Positions 681-9,735 of a DNA stretch of 64,000 bases are shown piece after piece. How positions within the stretch are numbered: position 1 is the first letter of the stretch; each line of letters opens with the position of its first letter. Under the pieces are notes generated by a model. It was given only the letters and a program-made list of their open reading frames with translations. It searched no databases and was not told where the DNA came from. Source of the stretch: Mesonia phycicola (lineage in GTDB: Bacteria; Bacteroidota; Bacteroidia; Flavobacteriales; Flavobacteriaceae). Made by a program: the position numbers and the translations under genes. The stretch covers positions 1 to 64,000 of the forward strand of contig NZ_FQYY01000001.1 of NCBI RefSeq assembly GCF_900141885.1, written 5' to 3'.

Positions 681-813
681 CACTGTACAATTCCAACTAA
701 GGTTTGGTTGTGTCCTGCGGACACAGACGCAAAAGCGTCAAAGTTAGCCCTTTTTATTATCTTTACTCTTAACCTTCCCTTAGCTGGGAAATTATACAAA
801 ACCGTTGGCAACA
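678..813 (+). repeat. Structured cassette-junction repeat R1
   Basis: Left boundary TAAC (678-681), right boundary GTT (804-806). The left arm around 684-702 pairs imperfectly with the right arm around 777-799. Inside are two perfect hairpins: GTGTCC/GGACAC (710-715 with 719-724) and GACGC/GCGTC (726-730 with 735-739). The left end belongs to the preceding gene's unit and supplies its stop codon. The right end begins the acetyltransferase unit. Confidence 0.8.
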
Positions 814-829
814 AGCTAAAAAAACAATC

Positions 830-1330
830 GTGATAAAATTAGAATCATTTAAAATAGATTATTGGAAATATCTCAAAAAATGGATTTCAAGTGAATCGGA
901 ATTAGTCCAATTCGCCGGACAAATTTTCTCTTTTCCAATTGACAAAAAACAAGTCGAATTATATTTATCGGAATCAAATAGAACTGTATTTAAAATAGAA
1001 AACGAGAATAATGAAACAATCGGAATTGCAGAAATAAACATTCCAGAGGATAATGTTGCGAAATTAGCTCGAATTTTAATCGGGGAAAAATCAATGCGTG
1101 GAAAAGGAATCGGAACGGAATTGATTAATAAACTGACTGAATATGGGTTTTATAATCTAAAAAAGGAAAGAATTATACTAAATGTATATTCTTGGAATAT
1201 TTGAGCAATTAAATGTTATGAAAAAGTTGGTTTTCTAAAAACTGACAAACCAATAAAACGTATAAAGGTTGGAAATGAAAATTGGGAAACAATCGAAATG
1301 GAAAAAAAGCCAGTGCCTAACAATGTATAA
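830..1330 (+). pseudogene. GNAT-family N-acetyltransferase broken by an in-frame TGA (cassette 2)
   Basis: The GTG start at 830 opens a GNAT acetyltransferase that would transfer an acetyl group from acetyl-CoA to an amine. The acetyl-CoA loop region contains MRGKGIGTELI. Translation stops at TGA (1202-1204) after NVYSWNI, but the same frame continues at once with AIKCYEKVGF, the expected final GNAT strand and helix, and ends at TAA 1328-1330. The usual residue at the stop would fit Gly (GGA to TGA, one base). The restored stop lies inside repeat R2, as in neighbouring units. Either a real nonsense mutation or a base error; the truncated 124-residue product would lack the C-terminal core. Confidence 0.8.
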
Positions 1331-1452
1331 TTCCAACTAAGGTTTAGTTGTGTCCTGCGGACACAGACGCAAAAGCGTCAAAGTTGGCTCTTTTTACTAT
1401 CTTTACTCCTAACCTTCCCTTAGCTGGGAAATTACACAAAACCGTTACAAAA
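1311..1452 (+). repeat. Structured cassette-junction repeat R2
   Basis: Left edge GCCTAAC (1315-1321) matches the classical integron R'' consensus RYYYAAC exactly. The right edge GTT is at 1444-1446. It has the same two internal hairpins and paired outer arms as R1. It separates the broken acetyltransferase from the PA3715-like gene. Confidence 0.8.
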
Positions 1453-1460
1453 CATTAGAA

Positions 1461-2198
1461 ATGAAATACTACATTTTAATATTCTTTTTTCTTATAAACA
1501 CATTTTCATTTTCTCAAAATATTGATTTTATTAAAATTGTTTCCGAACAACTCGGTTTAGACAAATCAAAAATTAAAAGAGAATTGTTTACTTATAAAAC
1601 TATCCCAAACAATCAGTCTGAAACTATTGTAGTCATTCCTGAGATTTCTAATGAAGACGAAGATGACTATTTTTTTGAACTTAACAGTTATATTCTAATA
1701 GTTGACAGCGAAACAGGAAAGATTAAAAATCAATATTATGAAAGTTCAAAAACCAATAATTGGACGTCTGATGCTGTAGTTTTATCAGAAATTATAATAG
1801 ATACTGCACCTTACCAAATTTCAAAAGAAAAAAGAGCTTTTGGAATACGAGTAAATTATTATGGAATGTCTAAAGCTAATCCATATAGTAACACGACTAT
1901 TTCGTTATTTATAAAATCCAAAAACAAATTAAAAAAAATATTAGACAATTATGATGTAATGGATTATGGTGGCGAATGGGACACTAACTGTGCTGGAGAA
2001 TTTAAAAATGAAAAGAAAATATTGATTATATCATCAAATAAAACAAATGGTTATTATGATATTTTAGTAAAAAACAAAATTACAACAATAAAAAACTTTG
2101 AGAACGAAAATGGAGACTGTGACTACGAAGAAAAGAGAACATCTCAATCAATTCGATTAAAATATAATGGTGAAAAATACAAAAAAAACGTTTTGTAA
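1461..2198 (+). CDS. Exported protein resembling the PA3715 family (cassette 3)
   Basis: 245 residues with an N-terminal signal peptide of about 18 residues ending FSFSQ, so probably periplasmic. The body, with IVVIPE, an acidic EDEDDYF stretch, YILIVDSETGKIKN, DTAPYQIS, FGIRVNY and GEWDTNC, resembles exported proteins annotated as PA3715 family in Gram-negative bacteria. That assignment is from memory of the family and no molecular function is known to me. The stop codon TAA (2196-2198) is part of the unit's right end TTTTGTAAC, which is the exact complement of its left end GTTACAAAA at 1444. Confidence 0.6.
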   Translation: MKYYILIFFFLINTFSFSQNIDFIKIVSEQLGLDKSKIKRELFTYKTIPNNQSETIVVIPEISNEDEDDYFFELNSYILIVDSETGKIKNQYYESSKTNNWTSDAVVLSEIIIDTAPYQISKEKRAFGIRVNYYGMSKANPYSNTTISLFIKSKNKLKKILDNYDVMDYGGEWDTNCAGEFKNEKKILIISSNKTNGYYDILVKNKITTIKNFENENGDCDYEEKRTSQSIRLKYNGEKYKKNVL

Positions 2199-2394
2199 CA
2201 CGGTGTATAAAACATAGCTAATAAGTCCATAACCAAAAGGTTTGTGTATATTTAGAAGGTACGCCAAATTTTTAATTTGGCTTTAAAAAAGAGAAAAATT
2301 AAAAACAAAATATAAAAATTCGGCTCTGTGTTAATCCGAAAAGTTAGTGTCTTTTTGCACGCTACGTTTCATACATAAGTCCGTTGGCAACAAT
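2191..2394 (+). repeat. Divergent, longer cassette-junction repeat R3
   Basis: A different repeat family from R1/R2. The left arm after TTTTGTAAC starts GTGTATAAAACATAGC (around 2203-2218) and pairs imperfectly with the right arm around 2356-2377 (GCACGCTACGTTTCATACAT). The right boundary GTT is at 2383-2385. It is about 200 bases instead of about 130 and lacks the GTGTCC/GGACAC hairpin, but has the same boundary logic (AAC on the left, CCGTT on the right). Confidence 0.65.
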
Positions 2395-2415
2395 ATACCA
2401 ATCACTCTCTGAAAA

Positions 2416-2934
2416 ATGAATGAAAGCGAAATTGTAAAATATTTTAATATTGTTTTATTATCTGAAAAAGACGATAAGTTTTTTAACATATATGAATGTT
2501 TAGTTCCGAAACATCTTAAATATGAAACTAAAGACGAAAAAGAATACTTTAATGAATTATCAGAAAAAATTGCCGATTTTTTAAAAAGCAGAAAGTATTT
2601 TAACTAATTTGGGAATGGTTCGTTTGAACTGACTACAAAAGGAGAAAAAGCAAAAAGAAAAGGAGGGCATTTTGAATTAGAAAAATACGAGAATGATAAA
2701 GAAGATAAGCAAGACAAAATACTAGACTTAGATGGAAAACTTAAGAAATTTGAATTAAAGTTTGGTAATAAAATATTAGTCATCGGAATAGTTTTTACAA
2801 TTTTAAATTTTCTAATAACATTTGCAACTCTTGAATTTTGGAAGCGTGGCGAAAATAAGAGTGAACAAAAAATGCAAGTAACGAACCCATTAAAGATTGA
2901 AAAAGCAGAAAAAATAAAAGATAGTTTGAATTAA
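2416..2934 (+). pseudogene. Small membrane-anchored hypothetical, broken by in-frame TAA (cassette 4)
   Basis: The open frame from ATG 2416 stops at TAA (2605-2607) after 63 residues, but the same frame continues to TAA 2932-2934. The continuation begins FGNGSFELTTKGEKAKRKGGH, typical of the basic linker of small flavobacterial proteins with a winged-helix-like N-terminus, and then has a transmembrane helix (KILVIGIVFTILNFLITF region). The full product would be about 172 residues. One base change explains the stop. No enzyme function can be proposed. It is flanked by R3 and R4, and its unit ends are complementary over 10/10 bases. Confidence 0.7.
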
Positions 2935-2935
2935 A

Positions 2936-3082
2936 TAATGTTGCCAACAATGTATAATTCCAACTAAGGTTTAGTTGTGTCCTGCGGACACAGACGCAAA
3001 AGCGTCAAAGTTAGCTCTTTTTACTATCTTTACTTCTAACCTTCCCTTAGCTGGGAAATTATACAAAACCGTTGCCGCCAAT
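2936..3082 (+). repeat. Structured cassette-junction repeat R4
   Basis: Left edge TTGCCAAC (2941-2948), right edge GTT at 3071-3073. The sequence is nearly identical to R1/R2, including both internal hairpins. The left edge pairs with the start of the same unit (GTTGGCAACA at 2383). Confidence 0.8.
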
Positions 3083-3115
3083 TAAAAAACTCAACAAAAT
3101 CAACATATTGACAAG

Positions 3116-3137
3116 AATGTCGTAAAAATGTCGCAAA
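3116..3137 (+). promoter_or_regulatory. Tandem 11-bp direct repeat upstream of the XRE gene
   Basis: AATGTCGTAAA (3116-3126) is followed directly by AATGTCGCAAA (3127-3137), identical at 10 of 11 positions. It lies about 32 bases before a TAGTTTTG element at 3169-3176, a match to the Bacteroidota -7 consensus TAnnTTTG. It could be an operator for the helix-turn-helix protein encoded just downstream (autoregulation) or for another regulator. The position is seen; the role is inferred. Confidence 0.45.
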
Positions 3138-3201
3138 CAAACCGTTATCAAATTGATAGATTCATAAGTAGTTTTGTAGTAACAATAAACCAAAATTAAT
3201 T

Positions 3202-3765
3202 ATGAACGAAATCGGAAAAAAAATTAGAGAAATAAGAAAGAAAAAAGGACTTTCTCAAGAAAAGTTGGCTGAATCTGCAAAAGTGAATTTAAGAACAATT
3301 CAACGGATTGAAAATAACGAAAGTGAACCTCGTGGAAAAACCTTGAACTTAGTTTGCGAGGTGCTTAACATAAATGCAGAAGATATTTTAGATTATGGAA
3401 AACAAACTGACAAAAGCTATCTAACAATTTTTCATCTTTCTGTAATAGTCTTTTTAGCAATACCTGTTGGAAATATAATTGTCCCTCTGATTTTATGGAT
3501 AAATAAAAAAGATAAAATTGTTGGACTAAAAGAAATCGGAGCAAATCTTTTGAATTATCAAATCTTATGGTCGATTATAACATTTTTATGTATAACAGGA
3601 TTCGCATTTTCGAAAATTATGCATTATGGTTATTATCCTATTCTTTTTTATATTTTCATCGGACTTTATACTTTGAACATAATATTACCAATAGTTTTTG
3701 CATTTAAAACGAGTAAAGGGAAAACAGAAAATTTATATCCAAATATAATTAAACTGATAAAATAA
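3202..3765 (+). CDS. XRE-family regulator fused to a DUF4870-like membrane domain (cassette 5)
   Basis: 187 residues. Positions 1-60 form an XRE/Cro-C1 helix-turn-helix (IGKKIREIRKKKGLSQEKLA, then a recognition helix with NLRTIQRIEN). The rest has three to four hydrophobic helices resembling the DUF4870/Tic20-like domain. A DNA-binding head on a membrane domain suggests a membrane-tethered regulator, a combination known in Bacteroidota. The gene has its own candidate promoter (TAGTTTTG at 3169) and a tandem direct repeat upstream, unlike most units in the array, so it may be expressed independently of its position. Confidence 0.75.
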   Translation: MNEIGKKIREIRKKKGLSQEKLAESAKVNLRTIQRIENNESEPRGKTLNLVCEVLNINAEDILDYGKQTDKSYLTIFHLSVIVFLAIPVGNIIVPLILWINKKDKIVGLKEIGANLLNYQILWSIITFLCITGFAFSKIMHYGYYPILFYIFIGLYTLNIILPIVFAFKTSKGKTENLYPNIIKLIK

Positions 3766-3908
3766 CTGGTGGCAACATTGTATAATTCCAACTAAGGTTT
3801 AATTGTGTCCTGCGGACACAGACGCAAAAGCTTCAAATTAAGTTCTTTTTATTATCTTTAACATTCATTCAACGCAACTGAAAGTTATATTAAACCGTTG
3901 TGGGTAAT
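3766..3908 (+). repeat. Structured cassette-junction repeat R5, divergent right arm
   Basis: The left part (GGCAAC at 3771-3776, then TGTATAATTCCAACTAAGG and the two hairpins) matches R1. The right part (about 3860-3896) differs from other copies but still ends in ACCGTT, with GTT at 3897-3899. The copy looks mosaic, with left and right halves of different ancestry. Confidence 0.7.
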
Positions 3909-4003
3909 GCGAAAAAACACTCAAAACGAAAACAGAACTCAAATTAATACTGATTTACAGATATTTAATGTATTTTAGAAATGGAAAACTAAAAAATCAT
4001 ATT

Positions 4004-4345
4004 ATGAAAAATTGGATTTTATTAATCGGACTTTTAATTGGAGTAAATTCATTTGCTCAGGATAAAAGTATAGAAAACGAAAAAAACGAACCGTCTTTTA
4101 AATGCGATATCGTCAAATTTGACTCTAAAAAAAACACAATGGAATTCCAAGGAAACGTGAATTTTAAATCAGATATTATTGAACTGAAGAATGCTGACAA
4201 AATCGTTCTTAATAATAACACGAATGAAATAATTGTTACAGGTTTAGGAGAGTTTACGATCGATGGAGCAATTCAAATAAAAGATAAAGCGGAAAAGAAT
4301 ATATTGAAATACACTATTGGCGAACGAATAGCATATTTGGAATAA
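4004..4345 (+). CDS. OstA/LptA-like exported protein (cassette 6)
   Basis: I chose ATG 4004 rather than the upstream ATG 3968, because it gives a clean signal peptide (MKNWILLIGLLIGVNSFAQ) and about 113 residues. The mature part has short alternating strands: CDIVKFDSKKNTMEFQGNVNFKSD, then IELKNADKIVLNNNTNEIIVTG. This is the pattern of the OstA-like/LptA beta-jellyroll domain. LptA binds lipopolysaccharide in the periplasm, but related single domains occur in many contexts, so the ligand is unknown. The unit ends (GTTGTGGGTA at 3897 and TACCCACAAT ending near 4361) are complementary at 9/10 positions. Confidence 0.6.
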   Translation: MKNWILLIGLLIGVNSFAQDKSIENEKNEPSFKCDIVKFDSKKNTMEFQGNVNFKSDIIELKNADKIVLNNNTNEIIVTGLGEFTIDGAIQIKDKAEKNILKYTIGERIAYLE

Positions 4346-4496
4346 AAAACACTACCCACAATACTGTATAATTCCAACTAAGGTTTGGTTGTGTCCTGCG
4401 GACACAGACGCAAAAGCGTCAAAGTTAGCTCTTTTTACTATCTTTACTCCTAACCTTCCCTTAGCTGGGAGATTATACAAAACCGTTAGCCACGAG
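4346..4496 (+). repeat. Structured cassette-junction repeat R6
   Basis: Left edge ACCCACAAT (near 4353-4361), where AAT replaces the usual AAC; right edge GTT at 4485-4487. Both internal hairpins and the CTTAGCTGGGA right arm are intact. Confidence 0.75.
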
Positions 4497-4525
4497 ATAT
4501 AACAACTTAGTAATAAATTATAACA

Positions 4526-4954
4526 ATGACTAAAATTACATTAAAAGCAATTTTTATTTTTTATCTTCTTTTTTCTTTTTACCAAGCGAAAGCACAAGTA
4601 AGCGTTTCCTACTTTGGAAATTCTGACAATTCAAAAGTAGGTGTCGGATACGATTTTAACGAAAAATTATGGACGGAATTAAGGATTTATTCAGGCACAT
4701 CATTAGAGAATGTAACTGCAGAAGCAGTTCTTAATTATAATTTTTTACGAAGAGAAGAATATCGAACTTATATTGGAGGAGGAATTGTGGTAAATAATTT
4801 GAATGGAATTGTTGTACCGATAGGAGCTCAATTTACTCCATTTGAGAATTTAAAAAATTTCTCTTTTCATATTGAATTACAACCAATGTATGAGGTAGAT
4901 TACGCAGATTTGTTCGTTAACGGATTTGGTGGTATTCGATATAAATTTAATTAG
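4526..4954 (+). CDS. Small outer-membrane beta-barrel-like protein (cassette 7)
   Basis: 142 residues with a signal peptide of about 24 residues ending QAKAQ. The mature chain is a run of amphipathic strands rich in aromatic and glycine residues (VSVSYFGNSDNSKVGVGYDF, then RTYIGGGIVVNN) and ends in an aromatic strand (GGIRYKFN), as outer-membrane barrels do. This size would allow about eight strands. No specific function can be given. It sits between R6 and R7; the end complementarity of this unit is weaker (7/10). Confidence 0.6.
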   Translation: MTKITLKAIFIFYLLFSFYQAKAQVSVSYFGNSDNSKVGVGYDFNEKLWTELRIYSGTSLENVTAEAVLNYNFLRREEYRTYIGGGIVVNNLNGIVVPIGAQFTPFENLKNFSFHIELQPMYEVDYADLFVNGFGGIRYKFN

Positions 4955-4977
4955 AGAAATTTCATAACTGATTAAAT

Positions 4978-5124
4978 TCAGTTGCCAACACTGCATAGTT
5001 CCAACTAAGGTTTAGTTGTGTCCTGCGGACACAGACGCAAAAGTGTCAAAGTTAGTTCTTTTTATTATCTTTATTCCTGACCTTCCCTTAGCCGGGAAAT
5101 TATACAAAACCGTTATGAAACAAT
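4978..5124 (+). repeat. Structured cassette-junction repeat R7
   Basis: Left edge TTGCCAAC (4982-4989), right edge GTT at 5112-5114. A typical copy with small substitutions (GTGTC in place of GCGTC in the second hairpin, which weakens it). Confidence 0.75.
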
Positions 5125-5127
5125 AGT

Positions 5128-5727
5128 ATGACAAGATATCATAACAATCAATTAAGTAAAAGATTAATACAAGATGCAGCTAAGTATGGCATATCTGAGG
5201 ACTTAATTCAGAAAAATCTATCCAAAGGAAAACTAATACAAGTAAAAAGAAATGAGATACTTTTAAATATTGGTGAACAAAACAATTATATTTATTTTAT
5301 TCTTGAGGGTGGCTTTATAAGTCAATATTATAATGAGGAAAGTTCAAAGTACAGAACAATTGCTTTTTACATCGATAATTATCAACCCTATATGACGGAG
5401 CCCGAAAGTTTTTTTACCAACTCTATTTCCAATTGTCAACTAAAAGCATATAAAAAATCAAAATTAATAGCTTTTCATCGTGAAAGTATCACTAGTTTAA
5501 ATAATGAGTACAAAAATTTTGATAAATATTATAATGCAAAAATTTTACAAGCACTTATAATTGAAGGTCAGATGAAAACAAAACTCATAAGTCTTTCTAA
5601 AAAGAATTTATATAGCTATTTAATAACAGAACATAATGCTGTTACAAGAAATGTCCCTTCAAAATATATAGCAGAATTTATTGGTGTAACTCCGCAATGG
5701 TTAAGTAAGATTAAAAAGAGTATTTGA
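5128..5727 (+). CDS. Crp/Fnr-family transcriptional regulator (cassette 8, first gene)
   Basis: 199 residues. The N-terminal two thirds is a cyclic-nucleotide-binding-like beta roll (RNEILLNIGEQNNYIYFILEGGF). The C-terminal end is a short helix-turn-helix (SKYIAEFIGVTPQWLSKIKK). Flavobacterial Crp/Fnr proteins of this type usually lack the residues for cAMP, and the effector is unknown. It is followed after 77 bases by the carotenoid-type gene in the same unit, with an inverted repeat between them, so it may control that gene. Confidence 0.8.
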   Translation: MTRYHNNQLSKRLIQDAAKYGISEDLIQKNLSKGKLIQVKRNEILLNIGEQNNYIYFILEGGFISQYYNEESSKYRTIAFYIDNYQPYMTEPESFFTNSISNCQLKAYKKSKLIAFHRESITSLNNEYKNFDKYYNAKILQALIIEGQMKTKLISLSKKNLYSYLITEHNAVTRNVPSKYIAEFIGVTPQWLSKIKKSI

Positions 5728-5761
5728 AAGATGAAATTAGTTTCATAAAAGTCATTTAATT

Positions 5762-5798
5762 TTCTCATTAATTTGTTTAAGAAAAAATTTAATGAGAA
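5762..5798 (+). promoter_or_regulatory. Inverted repeat just before the carotenoid-type gene
   Basis: TTCTCATTAA (5762-5771) and TTAATGAGAA (5789-5798) are perfect 10-base arms separated by 17 bases, ending 6 bases before the ATG at 5805. It could be an operator for the upstream Crp/Fnr protein or an mRNA hairpin that hides the start. The arms are seen; the role is inferred. Confidence 0.45.
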
Positions 5799-5804
5799 TA
5801 TATT

Positions 5805-6701
5805 ATGAAAAAAATGAGTTCTTCTGCAAAATTGAGCTATTACTTAGGTTGGGGATTAATATTAATCTATTTTATAAGTAACCTTATTTTTGTTCATGAC
5901 CCAAGGCCCGCAACAGGAATTCTTGCTCTCGCAGGGTGTATATTTCTTGTAATTCACGGCGTAGCTCGATATGGCTGGAAAGGTACCGGACTATTCGTTA
6001 TTTTAGCTTATACAGTTAGCACATTTTTAGAAGATTTAAGCATACATACGGGCTTCCCTTTTGGAAATTATCATTACGATTTATCTAGTGCTCCTTTTGC
6101 TGTTCCTTTTATAGACCAAGTGCCGGTAGTTGTAGGTCCAATTTATATAGCAGTTGGCTATTTGTCTTGGACTATAGGATCTATTATAATGAATCATGCC
6201 GATCGTCATTTGGATAAAAAAAGGAATATTTTCTTGCTACCTATGGTTAGCGCGTTTATAATGGTGCAATTTGATTTGGTTCAAGACCCATCAACATCTA
6301 CCTATCAAGGATTATGGGTTTGGGAAAATGGTGGTGGTTTTGTAGGTGTACCTTTGGTTAATTTTCTTGGCTGGTATTTCACTTGCTACCTTTTTATGCA
6401 AATATTTACACTAGTTCTTGCCAAAAATCAACAAATGATTAAAACTTCAGGTTTAGTTGATAAGAAATTTTATTGGATGCAACCAATCGTTCTATATTTA
6501 ACTATTGCTTTTTCTTATGTTACACAATACATTTATCATATAGACAATGAAACAGAAATACAAGATTTGGCAGGCAATACATGGACAGTAGCAAACCTTT
6601 ATGAGATTTCGGTAACTGTTATGGTGTTTACGATGTTATATTCTGCTGTATTAGCAATTGTAAATTTATATAAAGATGCAAATGGTGACTTGAAAACATA
6701 G
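5805..6701 (+). CDS. Carotenoid biosynthesis protein, CruF/DUF422 family (cassette 8, second gene)
   Basis: 298 residues with about eight hydrophobic helices. Family hallmarks visible are TGFPFGNYHY (conserved Gly/Asn/Tyr loop), VPVVVGPIYIAVGY and WVWENGGGFVGVPLVNFLGWY. The DUF422 family includes the carotenoid hydratase CruF, an inner-membrane enzyme adding water to an end group of C40/C50 carotenoids. No other carotenoid genes are in the window, so the substrate is uncertain. It lies within the array as the second gene of the longest unit, whose ends (GTTATGAAAC at 5112 and GTTGCATAAC near 6838) are complementary at 9/10 positions. Confidence 0.75.
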   Translation: MKKMSSSAKLSYYLGWGLILIYFISNLIFVHDPRPATGILALAGCIFLVIHGVARYGWKGTGLFVILAYTVSTFLEDLSIHTGFPFGNYHYDLSSAPFAVPFIDQVPVVVGPIYIAVGYLSWTIGSIIMNHADRHLDKKRNIFLLPMVSAFIMVQFDLVQDPSTSTYQGLWVWENGGGFVGVPLVNFLGWYFTCYLFMQIFTLVLAKNQQMIKTSGLVDKKFYWMQPIVLYLTIAFSYVTQYIYHIDNETEIQDLAGNTWTVANLYEISVTVMVFTMLYSAVLAIVNLYKDANGDLKT

Positions 6702-6834
6702 TAGTTATTATATGTTTATTTGTTTTCATTTAGAACTAGAATTAGTGAATATATATTTTTCTAAATGTATTAGAGTATATTTAGAATCCAATAAATTAAA
6801 TAGAATTTTAGTAATGATTGGTAACTATGAAAAA

Positions 6835-6985
6835 ATCGTTGCATAACACCATATAATACCAACTAAGATTTAGTTATTTCTTGCAGACACAGACACAAAA
6901 GCAATACAGTTAGCTCTTTTTGTTATATATTTACTACCAAATCTTACCATCGTCGGATAATTACACGAATACATTGGCAATAATC
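6835..6985 (+). repeat. Decayed cassette-junction repeat R8
   Basis: Left edge GCATAAC (6841-6847), right edge ATTGGCAA (from 6973) where GTT has become ATT. The arms and loop are recognisable (CAACTAAGATTTAGTT, ACACAGACACAAAAGC) but both internal hairpins are damaged by substitutions. The remaining intergenic bases 6702-6834 are AT-rich with nothing recognisable. Confidence 0.65.
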
Positions 6986-7006
6986 ATAAATTACTCCCAT
7001 ATTTAA

Positions 7007-8284
7007 ATGAAAAAAGCACTGTACTTTTTAATAGCAATCTTATGTTTGAGTTGTAAAACAAATCAAAATAAAAAATCAGCTAATAAAAAACCAAATATCT
7101 TATTTATTATAGCAGATGATATGGGTAAAGATGCCTTAGCCGGATATACTGAAGGAACTATAAAACCACACACACCAAATATAGATTCTATTAGAAAAGC
7201 AGGTTTAAGCTTTAATAATTTCTGGACATACCCCACTTGTTCACCAACTAGAGCATCAATGATTACAGGTAAATATGGATATAGAACAGATGTAAGATGG
7301 GCTAATCAAAAATTAAATGAAAGTGAAATTTTATTACAAAAATATATTAACCAAAATACTAATAATTCTTACGCGACAGCTGTAGTTGGTAAATGGCATA
7401 TTTCTGGTTACGATACAACAATTAATCCAGAAACATTTGGCATTGATTATTATGCAGGCATATTTATTGGTTCTGTAAAAGATTATTACAACTGGCCTTT
7501 ATCTGAAAAAGGAAAGCAAACAACAGCTACAGAATATACTACCAAAAAGTTTACAGATTTAGCGTTCAATTGGATTAATAAACAAGAAAAACCTTGGTTT
7601 ATGTGGTTAGCCTATAATGCACCACATACTCCTTTTCATGTCCCTCCTGCAGAAATGCATAGTCAAGGAAACTTACCTCCTTACACAGAAAATGTAGATC
7701 CTACTCCTTATTTTATGGCTTCTATAGAGGCTATGGATTTTCAAATAGGAAAACTTTTAAATTCACTATCAAAAGAAGAAAAAGAAAATACAATTATTAT
7801 TTTTATGGGTGATAACGGTACAGAACCAATAGTTACCCAAGATCCATATAATAAAAATCAAGTAAAAAGAAGTTTATATCAAGGTGGTATAAATATGCCT
7901 TTATTTGTGTCTGGAAAGGGAGTTGAAAGAAAAGGAATCGATAATAATTTAATTACTACAACAGATATGTTTGCTACAATAGCCGAAATAGCAGGTGTAG
8001 AAATTGATGAAATAAATGATAGTAAAAGTTTTAAAACACTTTTTTCTGAAAAGAAATCTATTAGAAAGTACCAGTATTCTGAAATGAAGAATGAAAAAAA
8101 TGATGCTTGGACCATTAGTAATGGTACTTACAAATTATTAGTGTTTGTAAATGGAAAAGAAGAAATGTACAACTTAAGTACCGATCCATATGAAAAAAAC
8201 AACATTCTAAATTCGACTCTTAATTCTATAGAAAAAAAATCTAAAGAAGAGTTAGAAATTGAATTGTTGAGGATAAGAAATTAA
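7007..8284 (+). CDS. Sulfatase lipoprotein (cassette 9)
   Basis: 425 residues. A lipobox-like LCLSC (Cys16) indicates a membrane-anchored lipoprotein. The sulfatase fold is clear. IADDMG (35-40) supplies metal-binding Asp residues, and TCSPTRASMITG contains Cys78 in C-x-P-x-R, the residue converted to formylglycine. VGKWHISGYD and FMGDNGTEP supply further active-site His, Asp and Asn residues. It would hydrolyse a sulfate ester, probably of an algal polysaccharide or mucin-like glycan. The maturase that makes formylglycine is not in the window. It lies alone between R8 and R9, not in a polysaccharide utilisation locus. Confidence 0.85.
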   Translation: MKKALYFLIAILCLSCKTNQNKKSANKKPNILFIIADDMGKDALAGYTEGTIKPHTPNIDSIRKAGLSFNNFWTYPTCSPTRASMITGKYGYRTDVRWANQKLNESEILLQKYINQNTNNSYATAVVGKWHISGYDTTINPETFGIDYYAGIFIGSVKDYYNWPLSEKGKQTTATEYTTKKFTDLAFNWINKQEKPWFMWLAYNAPHTPFHVPPAEMHSQGNLPPYTENVDPTPYFMASIEAMDFQIGKLLNSLSKEEKENTIIIFMGDNGTEPIVTQDPYNKNQVKRSLYQGGINMPLFVSGKGVERKGIDNNLITTTDMFATIAEIAGVEIDEINDSKSFKTLFSEKKSIRKYQYSEMKNEKNDAWTISNGTYKLLVFVNGKEEMYNLSTDPYEKNNILNSTLNSIEKKSKEELEIELLRIRN

Positions 8285-8287
8285 AAA

Positions 8288-8437
8288 TACCTACCATCCA
8301 ACGATGTATAATTCCAACTAAGGTTTAGTTGTATCCTGCGGAAACAGACGCAAAAGTGTCAAAGTTATCTCTTTTTACTATCTTTATTCCTATTACTTCA
8401 ATAGCTGGAAAATTACACAAAATAGTTATATAACATT
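8288..8437 (+). repeat. Structured cassette-junction repeat R9
   Basis: Left edge ATCCAAC (8296-8302), right edge GTT at 8425-8427. Compared with R1 it has changes in both hairpins (TGCGGAAACAG, GTGTC) and a shortened right arm (ATTACTTCAATAGCTGG). Confidence 0.7.
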
Positions 8438-8441
8438 ATAA

Positions 8442-8972
8442 ATGAAGCAATTACTATTTACAATATTATTTTTCAATTTAAATTTTGGATTCTCACAAAT
8501 TCCAAATAATAGCTATGAAATTAATAAAAAAATTGAATTAAATTATATTAGTTTAGAAGTAGAATGTTTTTATAACAGAACTGATGGAGGTAAAATTTTA
8601 AAGAAAATTGTTCTAAATAGATATAGTGATACCTTAAGTCATTTATTTAAAATTTATGACCAAAAAGACACAATTGGCGACCATAAATTATCTCTAAAAC
8701 AGTTATTTTCAAAATATGCTATAAAAATACCTACTTCTAAATTTGATGAAATTGCTTTATTATTGAAAGATTTAGATGTAAATAAAATAAATGAAATATA
8801 TAGCAAACCAGATAACCTTACTGATGGCTGCCAAAACGTTCTGACTTTTTCTGATAATATTTATACTATTAAAATTAACGCACATGCACCTGAAGCTCTC
8901 CCTATAAAAAGAGGTTTATTAAATTTTTATAATTTATACAGAAAAATTTGGGATTTAGCAGTACGTTATTAA
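8442..8972 (+). CDS. Exported hypothetical protein (cassette 10)
   Basis: 176 residues with a signal peptide of about 18 residues ending FGFSQ. No recognised domain. The mature protein has several charged helices and single Cys residues (VECFYN, DGCQNV). The stop TAA at 8970-8972 precedes the right end of the unit, GTTATATAAC (8977-8986). That end is complementary over 10/10 bases to the start of the unit at 8425; the sequence is itself palindromic. Confidence 0.6.
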   Translation: MKQLLFTILFFNLNFGFSQIPNNSYEINKKIELNYISLEVECFYNRTDGGKILKKIVLNRYSDTLSHLFKIYDQKDTIGDHKLSLKQLFSKYAIKIPTSKFDEIALLLKDLDVNKINEIYSKPDNLTDGCQNVLTFSDNIYTIKINAHAPEALPIKRGLLNFYNLYRKIWDLAVRY

Positions 8973-8973
8973 A

Positions 8974-9110
8974 AACGTTATATAACAACGTATAATTCCA
9001 ACTAAAGGTTGTTTGTGTCCTGTAGACACAGACGCAAAAGCGTCAAAGTTATCTCTTTTTACTATCTTTACTCCTAACTTACACCTACCCTTAACTTAAT
9101 AACACAAGAA
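8974..9110 (+). repeat. Truncated cassette-junction repeat R10 at the array's right edge
   Basis: The left edge CGTTATATAAC (8976-8986), left arm and both hairpins are present (a slightly altered loop CCTGTAGACAC). After CTTTACTCCTAACTT the right arm dissolves into unrelated AT-rich sequence with no ACCGTT boundary nearby. It marks the degraded end of the array. Bases 9111-9300 hold nothing recognisable except an isolated ACCGTTAT at 9254. Confidence 0.65.
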
Positions 9111-9300: not shown

Positions 9301-9735
9301 ATGGAAAAATTTGCTCACATATATTTTCAAAATAAAATCTGTAGAATAACAATTATAACGCTAATGTTATTTTTTCTATATAATAAAACTAATGCTCAAG
9401 ATCAATTAGATCAAAGGGCTGAAGAAAAACAGATAATTGAAAAACAGAGACAATTAACTCTAAGTCAGATACAGCAAGCAAAAATTGAAAGAAAATATCA
9501 AAAAAATTTAGCATTAAATCAACAAGAACAAGCTAAAATTAAAAGGAAAGAACAAAGAGTATTAGCTTTAAATAAACGAGAACAAGCTAAAATTAAAAGA
9601 AAACAACAAAGAGCATTAGCTTTAAAAAAACGAGAACAAGCTAAAATTAAAAGAGAACAACAAAGGGCCTTAGTTTTAAATAAACGAGAACAAGCTAAAG
9701 TTAAAGGCGAAAATTCAGATAAAAAAATTGAATAA
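9301..9735 (+). CDS. Exported coiled-coil protein with 18-residue tandem repeats
   Basis: 144 residues. An N-terminal hydrophobic segment (ITLMLFFLYN) ending TNAQ acts as a signal peptide. The mature part is about 110 residues of Lys/Arg/Gln/Glu/Ala without Cys or aromatic clusters. It is dominated by four near-perfect copies of an 18-residue unit of the type REQAKIKRKQQRALALKK, encoded by 54-base tandem repeats around 9525-9710. It should form a long, strongly basic alpha-helix or coiled coil in the periplasm. The repeat number may vary between strains. No family recognised. A terminator hairpin follows. Confidence 0.65.
   Translation: MEKFAHIYFQNKICRITIITLMLFFLYNKTNAQDQLDQRAEEKQIIEKQRQLTLSQIQQAKIERKYQKNLALNQQEQAKIKRKEQRVLALNKREQAKIKRKQQRALALKKREQAKIKREQQRALVLNKREQAKVKGENSDKKIE

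Follow-up and report, generated by a model that had tools for sequence, protein, structure and literature searches.

Self-paired gene cassettes with a fixed A/C at position 11 in Mesonia phycicola point to an integron-like system with a non-IntI recombinase

Near the start of contig NZ_FQYY01000001.1 of Mesonia phycicola (GCF_900141885.1), genes alternate with repeats, and the first bases of a unit are complementary to the last bases of the same unit. What kind of system would match the two ends of one unit is the question addressed here. The window, i.e. the whole stretch of 64,000 nucleotides that was analysed (positions 1-64,000, forward strand), holds the cassettes and attC-like sites listed in Table 1. 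On recount, the own-end pairing described in the initial annotation was reproduced for the three units paired throughout and the three with a single mismatch, and the remaining three (804, 4485 and 6973) pair at fewer positions. As had been claimed, all nine starts have A at position 11, and the opposing C was found in eight of the ten unit ends, the exceptions being A (end at 2948) and T (end at 8302). Pfam searches at E 0.001 gave no match for six of the ten cassette ORFs, and annotation was little informative; the four Rfam matches to the array were all under the gathering scores, and no DNA relatives of a 1,821-base array stretch were found in phage and plasmid collections.

Table 1 Cassettes and attC-like sites of the array in the window (pairing: matched positions out of ten between the two ends of a cassette)
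Feature	Coordinates	Strand	Content	Pairing	Remarks
Cassette	804..1321	+	ORF 830-1204, GNAT acetyltransferase	6/10	Starts GTTGGCAACAAG; start and end codes differ; frame broken by in-frame TGA at 1202-1204
attC-like site	1322..1443	+	AAC-3 nt-L box ... L box-6 nt-GTT		Main repeat family
Cassette	1444..2199	+	ORF 1461-2198	10/10	
attC-like site	2200..2382	+			Other, longer sequence family; no match with main repeat
Cassette	2383..2948	+	ORF interrupted	10/10	A facing A at position 11
attC-like site	2949..3070	+			Main repeat family
Cassette	3071..3776	+	ORF 3202-3765, HTH-DUF4870	9/10	
attC-like site	3777..3896	+			Main repeat family
Cassette	3897..4362	+	ORF 3968-4345	9/10	End AAT replaces AAC
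attC-like site	4363..4484	+			Main repeat family
Cassette	4485..4989	+	ORF 4526-4954	7/10	
attC-like site	4990..5111	+			Main repeat family
Cassette	5112..6847	+	ORFs 5128-5727 (no Pfam match) and 5805-6701 (carotenoid synthesis)	9/10	Two genes
attC-like site	6848..6972	+			Decayed; following unit begins ATT
Cassette	6973..8302	+	ORF 7007-8284, sulfatase	4/10	Second-to-last; starts ATT, not GTT
attC-like site	8303..8424	+			Main repeat family
Cassette	8425..8986	+	ORF 8442-8972	10/10	Last cassette
attC-like site	8987..9080	+			Last site, decayed; right end of array on contig, right limit approximate

In the whole genome, 66 units were detected, 12 of which were left out (end without the TT of GTT, or reverse-strand artefact), and 54 were scored. 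Positions 4-10 matched the unit's own end at a mean of 5.22 of 7, against 2.57 for the neighbour across the repeat and a highest mean of 3.33 in 5000 shuffles. Each of these positions matched in 69-80% of the units, compared with 32-50% after shuffling and 26-46% with the neighbour, and the covariation thus extends beyond the GTT/AAC bases. Position 11 matched in none of the 54 units and is far from random, with A in 74/74 starts and C in 73/77 ends; pairing returns at positions 12-14 (87/83/76% versus 71/54/51% shuffled) and ends at position 15. Paired ends with a fixed A/C at position 11 are therefore real and beyond chance. This within-unit design also implies, as had been proposed, a single strand, circular or folded, that brings the two ends of one unit together. 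Cassette-specific end pairing is a known property of integron cassettes, so that half of the observation is not new.

A cassette consists of a gene and a site of about 120 bp (170-210 bp in some relatives), and the site is built from two box pairs: an outer R pair (the cassette starts with GTTN7A.. and ends with ..CN7'AAC) and an inner L pair of 6-9 bp. The L boxes pair within the site at 5.21 of 6 positions (n=67, repeated copies included and the best of the offsets tried), compared with 3.96 after shuffling and at most 4.43 in 2000 shuffles. When sites were folded in the circle form, the bottom strand was predicted to be more stable in 63/63 sites of this genome and 85/85 of relatives (148/148, only units with at least 5/7 code matches being folded), and in 41/100 random fragments. 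Units with fewer than 5/7 code positions paired number 2/65 in this genome and 11/96 in relatives. Since folding is predicted to favour the bottom strand, the A.C of the top strand becomes a G.T wobble on the strand that is probably folded. The initial annotation had read position 11 as a mismatched recognition mark akin to an extrahelical base of attC; its conservation stands, and the extrahelical reading was dropped because the bottom strand has a G.T pair there. The unequal R-to-L spacers, 3 versus 6 nt, are the nearer counterpart of the attC extrahelical bases. The earlier interpretation as a whole is partly supported.

The other stem mismatches, written for the top strand, are also mostly of the A.C type (24, versus three of the G.T type); 13 of the 24 sit at position 10, and the A.C fraction in shuffled stems was 0.54, with 0.60 as the highest of 500 shuffles. 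Position 11 as the sole cause of the strand bias was ruled out, as the predicted gap (bottom minus top) is -4.65 kcal/mol and still -3.61 kcal/mol with A-T there; in these folding models it would account for just part of the bias. It should be noted that the generic site finder, which also demands that the L boxes pair at 6/6, and the strict attI pattern both presuppose A at 11 (at the unit start for the former); neither is evidence for it. No such condition was set in the scoring of the 54 units, the exact-pair search, the named-locus and class-level surveys or the loose attI motif.

The same paired-end A/C pattern was found downstream of homologous recombinases across the class Bacteroidia. 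The test in other genomes that had been suggested was favourable: in the loci of 20 relatives, a search for exact 10-bp GTTN7...N7'AAC pairs, blind to position 11, returned pairs carrying A/C there in 131/197 cases, compared with 2/70 in a complement-not-reversed control, and 19 of the 20 loci held one or more such pairs. No A/C unit was found in 6/16 class-level loci for which some 12 kb of downstream sequence was covered, in 22/43 named loci, many with short flanks, or within 10 kb downstream in Mesonia aestuariivivens, the nearest named relative (74% identity), which also had no attI match. Relatives of the recombinase occur in 149/295 Bacteroidia genomes, arrays not in all of them. The longest ORF runs in the array direction in 123/126 units with an ORF of at least 60 aa; 22 units have no such ORF.

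In the relatives, arrays start at an attI-like site directly behind a tyrosine recombinase gene that points toward the array. The strict attI-like motif lies at most 250 bp from the recombinase stop codon in 35/43 loci and occurs elsewhere six times in 732,262 nt (both strands); it is absent in 8/43 loci, including the host's own, which reads ATGTAAC, and one cut by a contig end. The loose motif adjoins the recombinase in 41/43. In the host genome the recombinase heads a cassette, and its contig in the draft ends before the first repeat, so the linkage between recombinase and array is direct in relatives only.

This enzyme has the catalytic residues R235, K260, H324, R327, H350 and Y359, invariant among 31 orthologues, and an N-terminal extension of about 95 residues, and is without the IntI insertion of about 42 residues (about 43 are missing compared with IntI4). 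TIGR02249 matches it with a jump over positions 180-239 and at 209.4 bits (cut-off 265), and the motif distance is 60, compared with 102 in 14/19 IntI proteins, the search having failed or given other values in five. Its best profile is NF040815 (218.9 bits, cut-off 220), its closest solved relatives are XerA (5hxy) and then IntI4, and a quick tree places it apart from IntI. All relatives on plasmids (among the matches listed) and phages are below 60% identity.

The Xer-like affinity leaves room for double-strand recombination of circular cassettes, as by Xer or CTnDOT, with the ends as inverted arms for two protomers and A/C at 11 as a left/right base contact. The missing insertion and the solved relatives suit this view, as does an attI that resembles a double-strand core. 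Such arms would need conserved bases, yet positions 4-10 vary while pairing; the nested box pairs, the unequal spacers and the predicted bottom-strand bias suit a hairpin substrate, and double-strand exchange across codes that vary would presumably require homology, which attI does not provide. We regard this explanation as improbable. XerA, XerC and XerD are simple tyrosine recombinases, but the enzyme here heads cassette arrays and carries the extension; Xer/dif resolution uses a single dif and cell-wide XerC/D, whereas here there are arrays of many sites, and two further host proteins are the ones labelled XerC/D-like.

The sites resemble those of sedentary chromosomal integrons (IntI/attI/attC), of which the Vibrio superintegron is an example. 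Shared features are tandem cassettes in one orientation, host-homogeneous sites with R and L boxes and AAC/GTT edges, a bottom-strand fold (here predicted), an attI next to a tyrosine recombinase, and complementary ends within a cassette. The differences lie in the recombinase, which lacks the insertion and has gained an N-terminal extension, in its gene, which points at the array whereas an integron integrase diverges from the cassettes (reversed integrons are known), in attI, which lies downstream of the recombinase and perhaps reaches into the 3' end of its gene, and in the R box, where GTTRRRY/RYYYAAC is replaced by GTTN7A..CN7'AAC with the fixed A.C (G.T on the bottom strand). It is very unlikely that we are dealing with a CALIN, a cassette array derived from a canonical integron that has lost its IntI or has it at another location, even though the site anatomy is attC-like, two host contigs (C37 and C14) with attI copies and no gene come close to the CALIN definition, and CALINs are common according to passages of PMC9024848. 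No IntI over the cut-off was found in the host genome, and canonical IntI occurs in 1/198 Bacteroidia genomes; GTT/AAC is retained, but the canonical GTTRRRY core in just 7/148 starts; A/C at 11 was seen in 1/35 exact pairs from nine loci with canonical IntI in this phylum, of which only L262 has an evident array; and a CALIN is an attC cluster without a recombinase gene, whereas a different, non-IntI recombinase heads the array in relatives.

Signs of cassette mobility come from three loci (L083, L090 and L095), where identical or near-identical cassettes stand both at attI and deep in the array, and identity stops at GTT on both sides, at the resolution of the GTT triplet. Homologous cassette pairs with differing codes have both ends changed in step in 3/4 cases. 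Both ends are recoded jointly in the homologue of cassette 3071 in L255, and of the homologues of that cassette, 2/3 have no well-matched ends. A copy of cassette 804 in another genome (89% identical) has a better matching end. Could the repeats instead act as transcription terminators or structured RNAs that homologous recombination has spread, with arrays as hot spots and no site-specific cassettes? They do form hairpins, recombination between very similar repeats is conceivable, and the same loci contain some long repeats without GTT boundaries (in L084, L087, L096 and one in L090). Yet the pairing links cassette ends hundreds of bases apart and not the two sides of a repeat, the duplicated cassettes stop at GTT and not randomly within the repeat, and codes change at both ends jointly in 3/4 cases; of the explanations considered, this one is the least credible.

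The best explanation, with a probability of about 0.82, is an integron-like single-strand system that is run by a non-IntI recombinase and whose mobile gene cassettes are the units seen here, the recombination being deduced from sequence. Once a cassette is a free circle, its start and end would flank the site, so that the bottom strand, the putative substrate, is predicted to fold as one long hairpin: ten Watson-Crick pairs, the G.T wobble at 11, three pairs, and a bulge formed by the 6-nt spacer opposite the 3-nt one. The tyrosine recombinase at the array head would cut in or at GTT and insert the folded strand at the attI-like site behind its own gene, would also excise cassettes or move them within the array, and position 11 may help strand choice or polarity. 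By prediction, a site folds about 7 kcal/mol better in the circle than within the array, and the code may therefore act as a ratchet favouring integration over excision. Going further, we lean towards the view that Bacteroidia commonly carry a second kind of integron that does not depend on IntI. Its Xer-like recombinase, lacking the I2 helix, would recombine bottom strands in folded form and recognise GTT, the L boxes and the G.T at 11 as a strand mark, and a private code of 7-10 bp would pair the two ends of each cassette.

No description of such a system was found in the open-licence literature. Smyshlyaev et al. 2021 (PMC8138268) describe an integron-like subgroup of simple tyrosine recombinases in which conservation of the insertion is incomplete; in the relevant passages, no array is linked to members without it. 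PMC8138268 and PMC7790495 regard the insertion as essential for integron function, and its absence here counts against an integron-like system. CTXphi and other Xer-exploiting hairpin elements, as far as PMC7790495 describes them in part, share the folded single strand and an Xer-type enzyme without the I2 helix, but the hairpin there mimics dif, whereas the sites here are specific to their cassettes and are used over and over in long arrays. Private-code cassettes beside an enzyme without the IntI part thus look like a widespread, so far unrecognised relative of integrons.

Integrons spread antibiotic resistance, and integron-calling tools that depend on IntI would miss these platforms. The portion of the IntegronFinder 2.0 paper (PMC9024848) on this group names one complete Bacteroidetes integron, in Salinibacter ruber M1, besides Chlorobi and Ignavibacteriae, in contrast to the frequency of the recombinase relatives reported above. 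The private end codes offer a natural record of cassette identity. According to parts of PMC7790495, gain of the I2 helix let integrases shift from double- to single-strand recombination; a widespread hairpin-site cassette system without this helix would, if true, be either a solution reached independently or a relic of an earlier stage, and offers a way to test that question.

The cassettes of the array at 804-8986 start with GTT (ATT in the unit at 6973) and carry a code at start positions 4-10 that pairs with the end of the same unit. The initial annotation had described this pairing for six units, and its coordinates and its counts of 10/10 and 9/10 were correct on recount, as were the A at position 11 (9/9 starts) and the opposing C (8/10 ends); three units that it did not name pair at 6, 7 and 4 of 10 positions. 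For the host genome as a whole, 66 units of the main repeat were found, 12 were dropped (end without TT, or reverse-strand artefact) and 54 were scored. At positions 4-10, 69-80% of the 54 starts matched the reverse complement of their own end; the rate was 26-46% when the neighbour across the repeat was taken instead (74 sites) and 32-50% when ends were shuffled. On average, 5.22/7 positions matched for the own end, 2.57 for the neighbour and 2.67 for shuffled ends (highest of 5000 shuffles, 3.33). Position 11 matched in 0/54 units, and the fixed A-C held in the larger set, with A in 74/74 starts and C in 73/77 ends. Pairing resumed at positions 12-14 (87, 83 and 76% against 71, 54 and 51% in shuffled ends), and positions 15-16 matched in 11 and 9% only (n=54). 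Some poorly pairing units are long ones hiding a missed diverged site, e.g. 1444-2948. A broader finder, which accepts other site families and demands A at start position 11, gave a 7/7 code match in 43/65 own units and at least 5/7 in 63/65. The repeat core has 64 exact copies spread over 19 of the 43 contigs of this 3.28-Mb genome; 16 of these 19 are 3.7-9.2 kb long, which fits repeats having broken the assembly.

In relatives, exact 10-bp GTTN7...N7'AAC pairs were counted downstream of the tyrosine recombinase at the array head, with the complement, not reversed, as control. Twenty recombinase loci gave 197 exact pairs against 70 control pairs, and the expected A/C enrichment was evident (131/197 against 2/70), with at least one A/C pair in 19/20 loci and at least two in 16. 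A/C accompanied 46/130 pairs against 3/65 in the control in 43 of 80 named loci (present in 21/43), and 41/61 against 2/19 in a class-wide sample of 49 loci, in which five regions were taken twice and at least one unit was double-counted. Six of the 16 class-wide loci with about 12 kb downstream had no A/C unit. Named loci with A/C units include Algibacter onchidii (5), Winogradskyella ursingii (5), Seonamhaeicola aphaedonensis (7), a Rufibacter (5) and Zunongwangia mangrovi (1, on 2.4 kb). Nine loci with canonical IntI from this phylum had A/C in just 1/35 pairs (17 control pairs); L262, the sole locus among them with a clear array (a repeat in 12 copies), had 13 pairs, 10 of them with Watson-Crick pairing at position 11. 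Cassette-specific end pairing is thus a feature that integrons share, whereas the fixed A/C was not seen in these nine loci with their one evident array.

The outer pair (R box, GTTN7A..CN7'AAC) encloses an inner one. The layout AAC - 3 nt - L box ... L box - 6 nt - GTT was seen in 67 sites from relatives, a set that includes repeated copies, and the L boxes pair at 5.21/6 against 3.96 when shuffled (highest of 2000 shuffles, 4.43) at the best of the offsets tried. Their sequences vary (GGCTAT, GTGTAT, GTATAA, GCATAA), and site lengths fall into two groups, 115-122 and 168-210 nt, apart from a single site of 54 nt. Folding was compared with cassette end, site and own start joined as in a circle, for units with at least 5/7 code matches. 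The bottom strand was predicted to be more stable in 63/63 own and 85/85 relatives' sites, by a mean of 4.4 and 4.8 kcal/mol; among random window fragments it was better in 41/100. The circle was also predicted to fold more stably than the array form of its site, by about 7 kcal/mol (62/63 own, 83/85 relatives'). Besides position 11, top-strand stem mismatches are of A.C type in 24 cases (13 at position 10) and of G.T type in 3, the A.C fraction in shuffled pairs being 0.54 (highest 0.60); this skew agrees with selection favouring pairs that form wobbles when the bottom strand folds. The A-C mismatch, initially read as a recognition mark, is real and the most regular among such pairs, and is reinterpreted here as of this bottom-strand wobble type. 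With A-T placed at position 11 in silico (130 sites), the bottom-top gap was -3.61 instead of -4.65 kcal/mol; position 11, which may help in strand choice or polarity, accounts for only part of the strand bias.

No IntI over the cut-off was found in the host genome. The best partial IntI match lies inside a 397-aa tyrosine recombinase and stops 617 bp short of the end of contig C21; the nearest named relative of this recombinase is that of Mesonia aestuariivivens (74% identity). Pfam detected SAM-like and catalytic domains from residue 108 onward, while the N-terminal 95 or so residues, a beta-alpha region in the structural model, had no Pfam match. The catalytic residues are invariant across 31 orthologues. 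The best NCBIfam model is XerA-like (218.9 bits, cut-off 220), and the integron-integrase model fell under its cut-off (209.4 against 265 bits). Compared with IntI4, the protein lacks about 43 residues where the integron-specific insertion lies, and two of its catalytic motifs are 60 residues apart against 102 in 14/19 IntI, the motif search having failed or given other values in the other five. The model of the Mesonia protein (18 sequences, mean pLDDT 82.0, pTM 0.56) matched XerA best by E-value, followed by IntI4 with a higher TM-score. A quick tree of 111 sequences placed the 19 IntI on one side of a branch (support 100) and 31 array recombinases, with other relatives interspersed, on one side of another (support 91).

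On C21, the recombinase stop codon is followed by 33 bp and then by GTTGCCCACAAT, a cassette start, and the contig ends without reaching any repeat beyond the recombinase. The attI-like consensus is about TATATTT-N7-ATATAAC-NN-GTT. A loose form precedes a GTT start in 41/43 Flavobacteriaceae loci, and 39/40 readable starts behind it have A at position 11, the single exception (L088) being a misregistered match upstream of the true one. A strict pattern occurs at most 250 bp from the stop in 35/43 loci and 6 times in the 732,262 nt elsewhere in those loci; the host's own site (ATGTAAC) does not match it. At C37, a 12-residue likeness to the last codons of the recombinase (8/12 identical, E 1.8), made credible only by its place, precedes the attI-like site, and a shorter one was seen by eye at C14. 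These likenesses suggest that attI may take in the 3' end of the gene, and the C21 recombinase may serve both sites in trans. The Mesonia aestuariivivens locus (L101, 11186-21185) has no attI match and no A/C unit in 10 kb downstream of the recombinase, and is an empty or displaced platform.

Features of the host genome, with positions in the window unless a contig is named
Feature	Position	Strand	Remark
Cassette with interrupted gene	830-1321		In-frame stop in GNAT acetyltransferase
Cassette with interrupted gene	2383-2948		In-frame stop in another ORF
ORF with 54-bp tandem repeats	9301-9735		KREQAKIKR-type; immediately outside the array
ORF, 330 aa	20519-21511		Presumably resembles IS110-type transposase
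attI-like site, no recombinase gene	C37 (L020), oriented 13100	-	Cassette start follows
attI-like site, no recombinase gene	C14 (L013), oriented 793	-	Cassette start follows

Duplicated cassettes were found in three loci: 757 bp in five copies of 100% identity (L083; a tandem of three at attI and two far into the array), 571 bp in four copies of 94.6-100% (L090) and 556 bp in three of 100% (L095). Their identity starts and stops at GTT, barring chance shared letters, which puts the exchange point in or at GTT. Some further long repeats, in L084, L087, L096 and one in L090, lack GTT bounds and could represent different elements. For window cassette 3071-3776, three homologues (82-91% identity) were examined: in L255 both ends are altered together and still match; the L254 copy, directly behind attI-like sequence, has an end that does not match; and the L256 copy starts with GCT and has no matching end. 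Among 13 homologous unit pairs, codes were unchanged in nine and different in four; in three of these (L092/L026, L107/L086, L019/L083) the two ends carry equal numbers of changes, with an own match of 6-7 and a cross match of 3-4 of 7. Recoding was unequal in L092/L019 (3 and 2 changes). In these few cases, recoding at both ends could reflect either copying between the ends or selection. Cassette 804-1321 has a counterpart in another genome (L253) with the same gene and an unrelated attC stem, and the site sequence therefore seems to go with the host rather than with the gene.

Recombinase relatives occur in 190/299 Flavobacteriaceae (E <= 1e-40) and 149/295 Bacteroidia genomes (E <= 1e-60), some matches being confined to the core and lacking the N-terminal part, and arrays not being present in all; canonical IntI was found in 1/198 Bacteroidia genomes. 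A phylum sample gave 85/296 matches, none of these 85 being marked as the same family and one as the same class. Distant recombinases (35-40% identity) also stand ahead of A/C cassettes in Algibacter, Winogradskyella, Seonamhaeicola, Rufibacter and one further Flavobacteriaceae (L107, L114, L116, L122, L135). Near-full-length relatives are present in a Spirochaetota MAG (L121, one A/C unit) and an Undinarchaeales MAG (L125), which may be due to either transfer or misbinning.

The Natural History of Integrons counts Bacteroidota among the phyla with integrons. Judged by listings and abstract openings, the open-licence literature contains no account of a system of this kind in the phylum. The sequence itself shows the cassettes and sites, the covariation with its fixed A/C, the attI adjacency in relatives, the duplications and the missing IntI insertion; the bottom-strand fold is a prediction, and the adjacent recombinase would use the folded strand. 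The system is therefore said to work like an integron, but because neither the IntI insertion nor the integron core consensus was found, it is not classed as an integron member.
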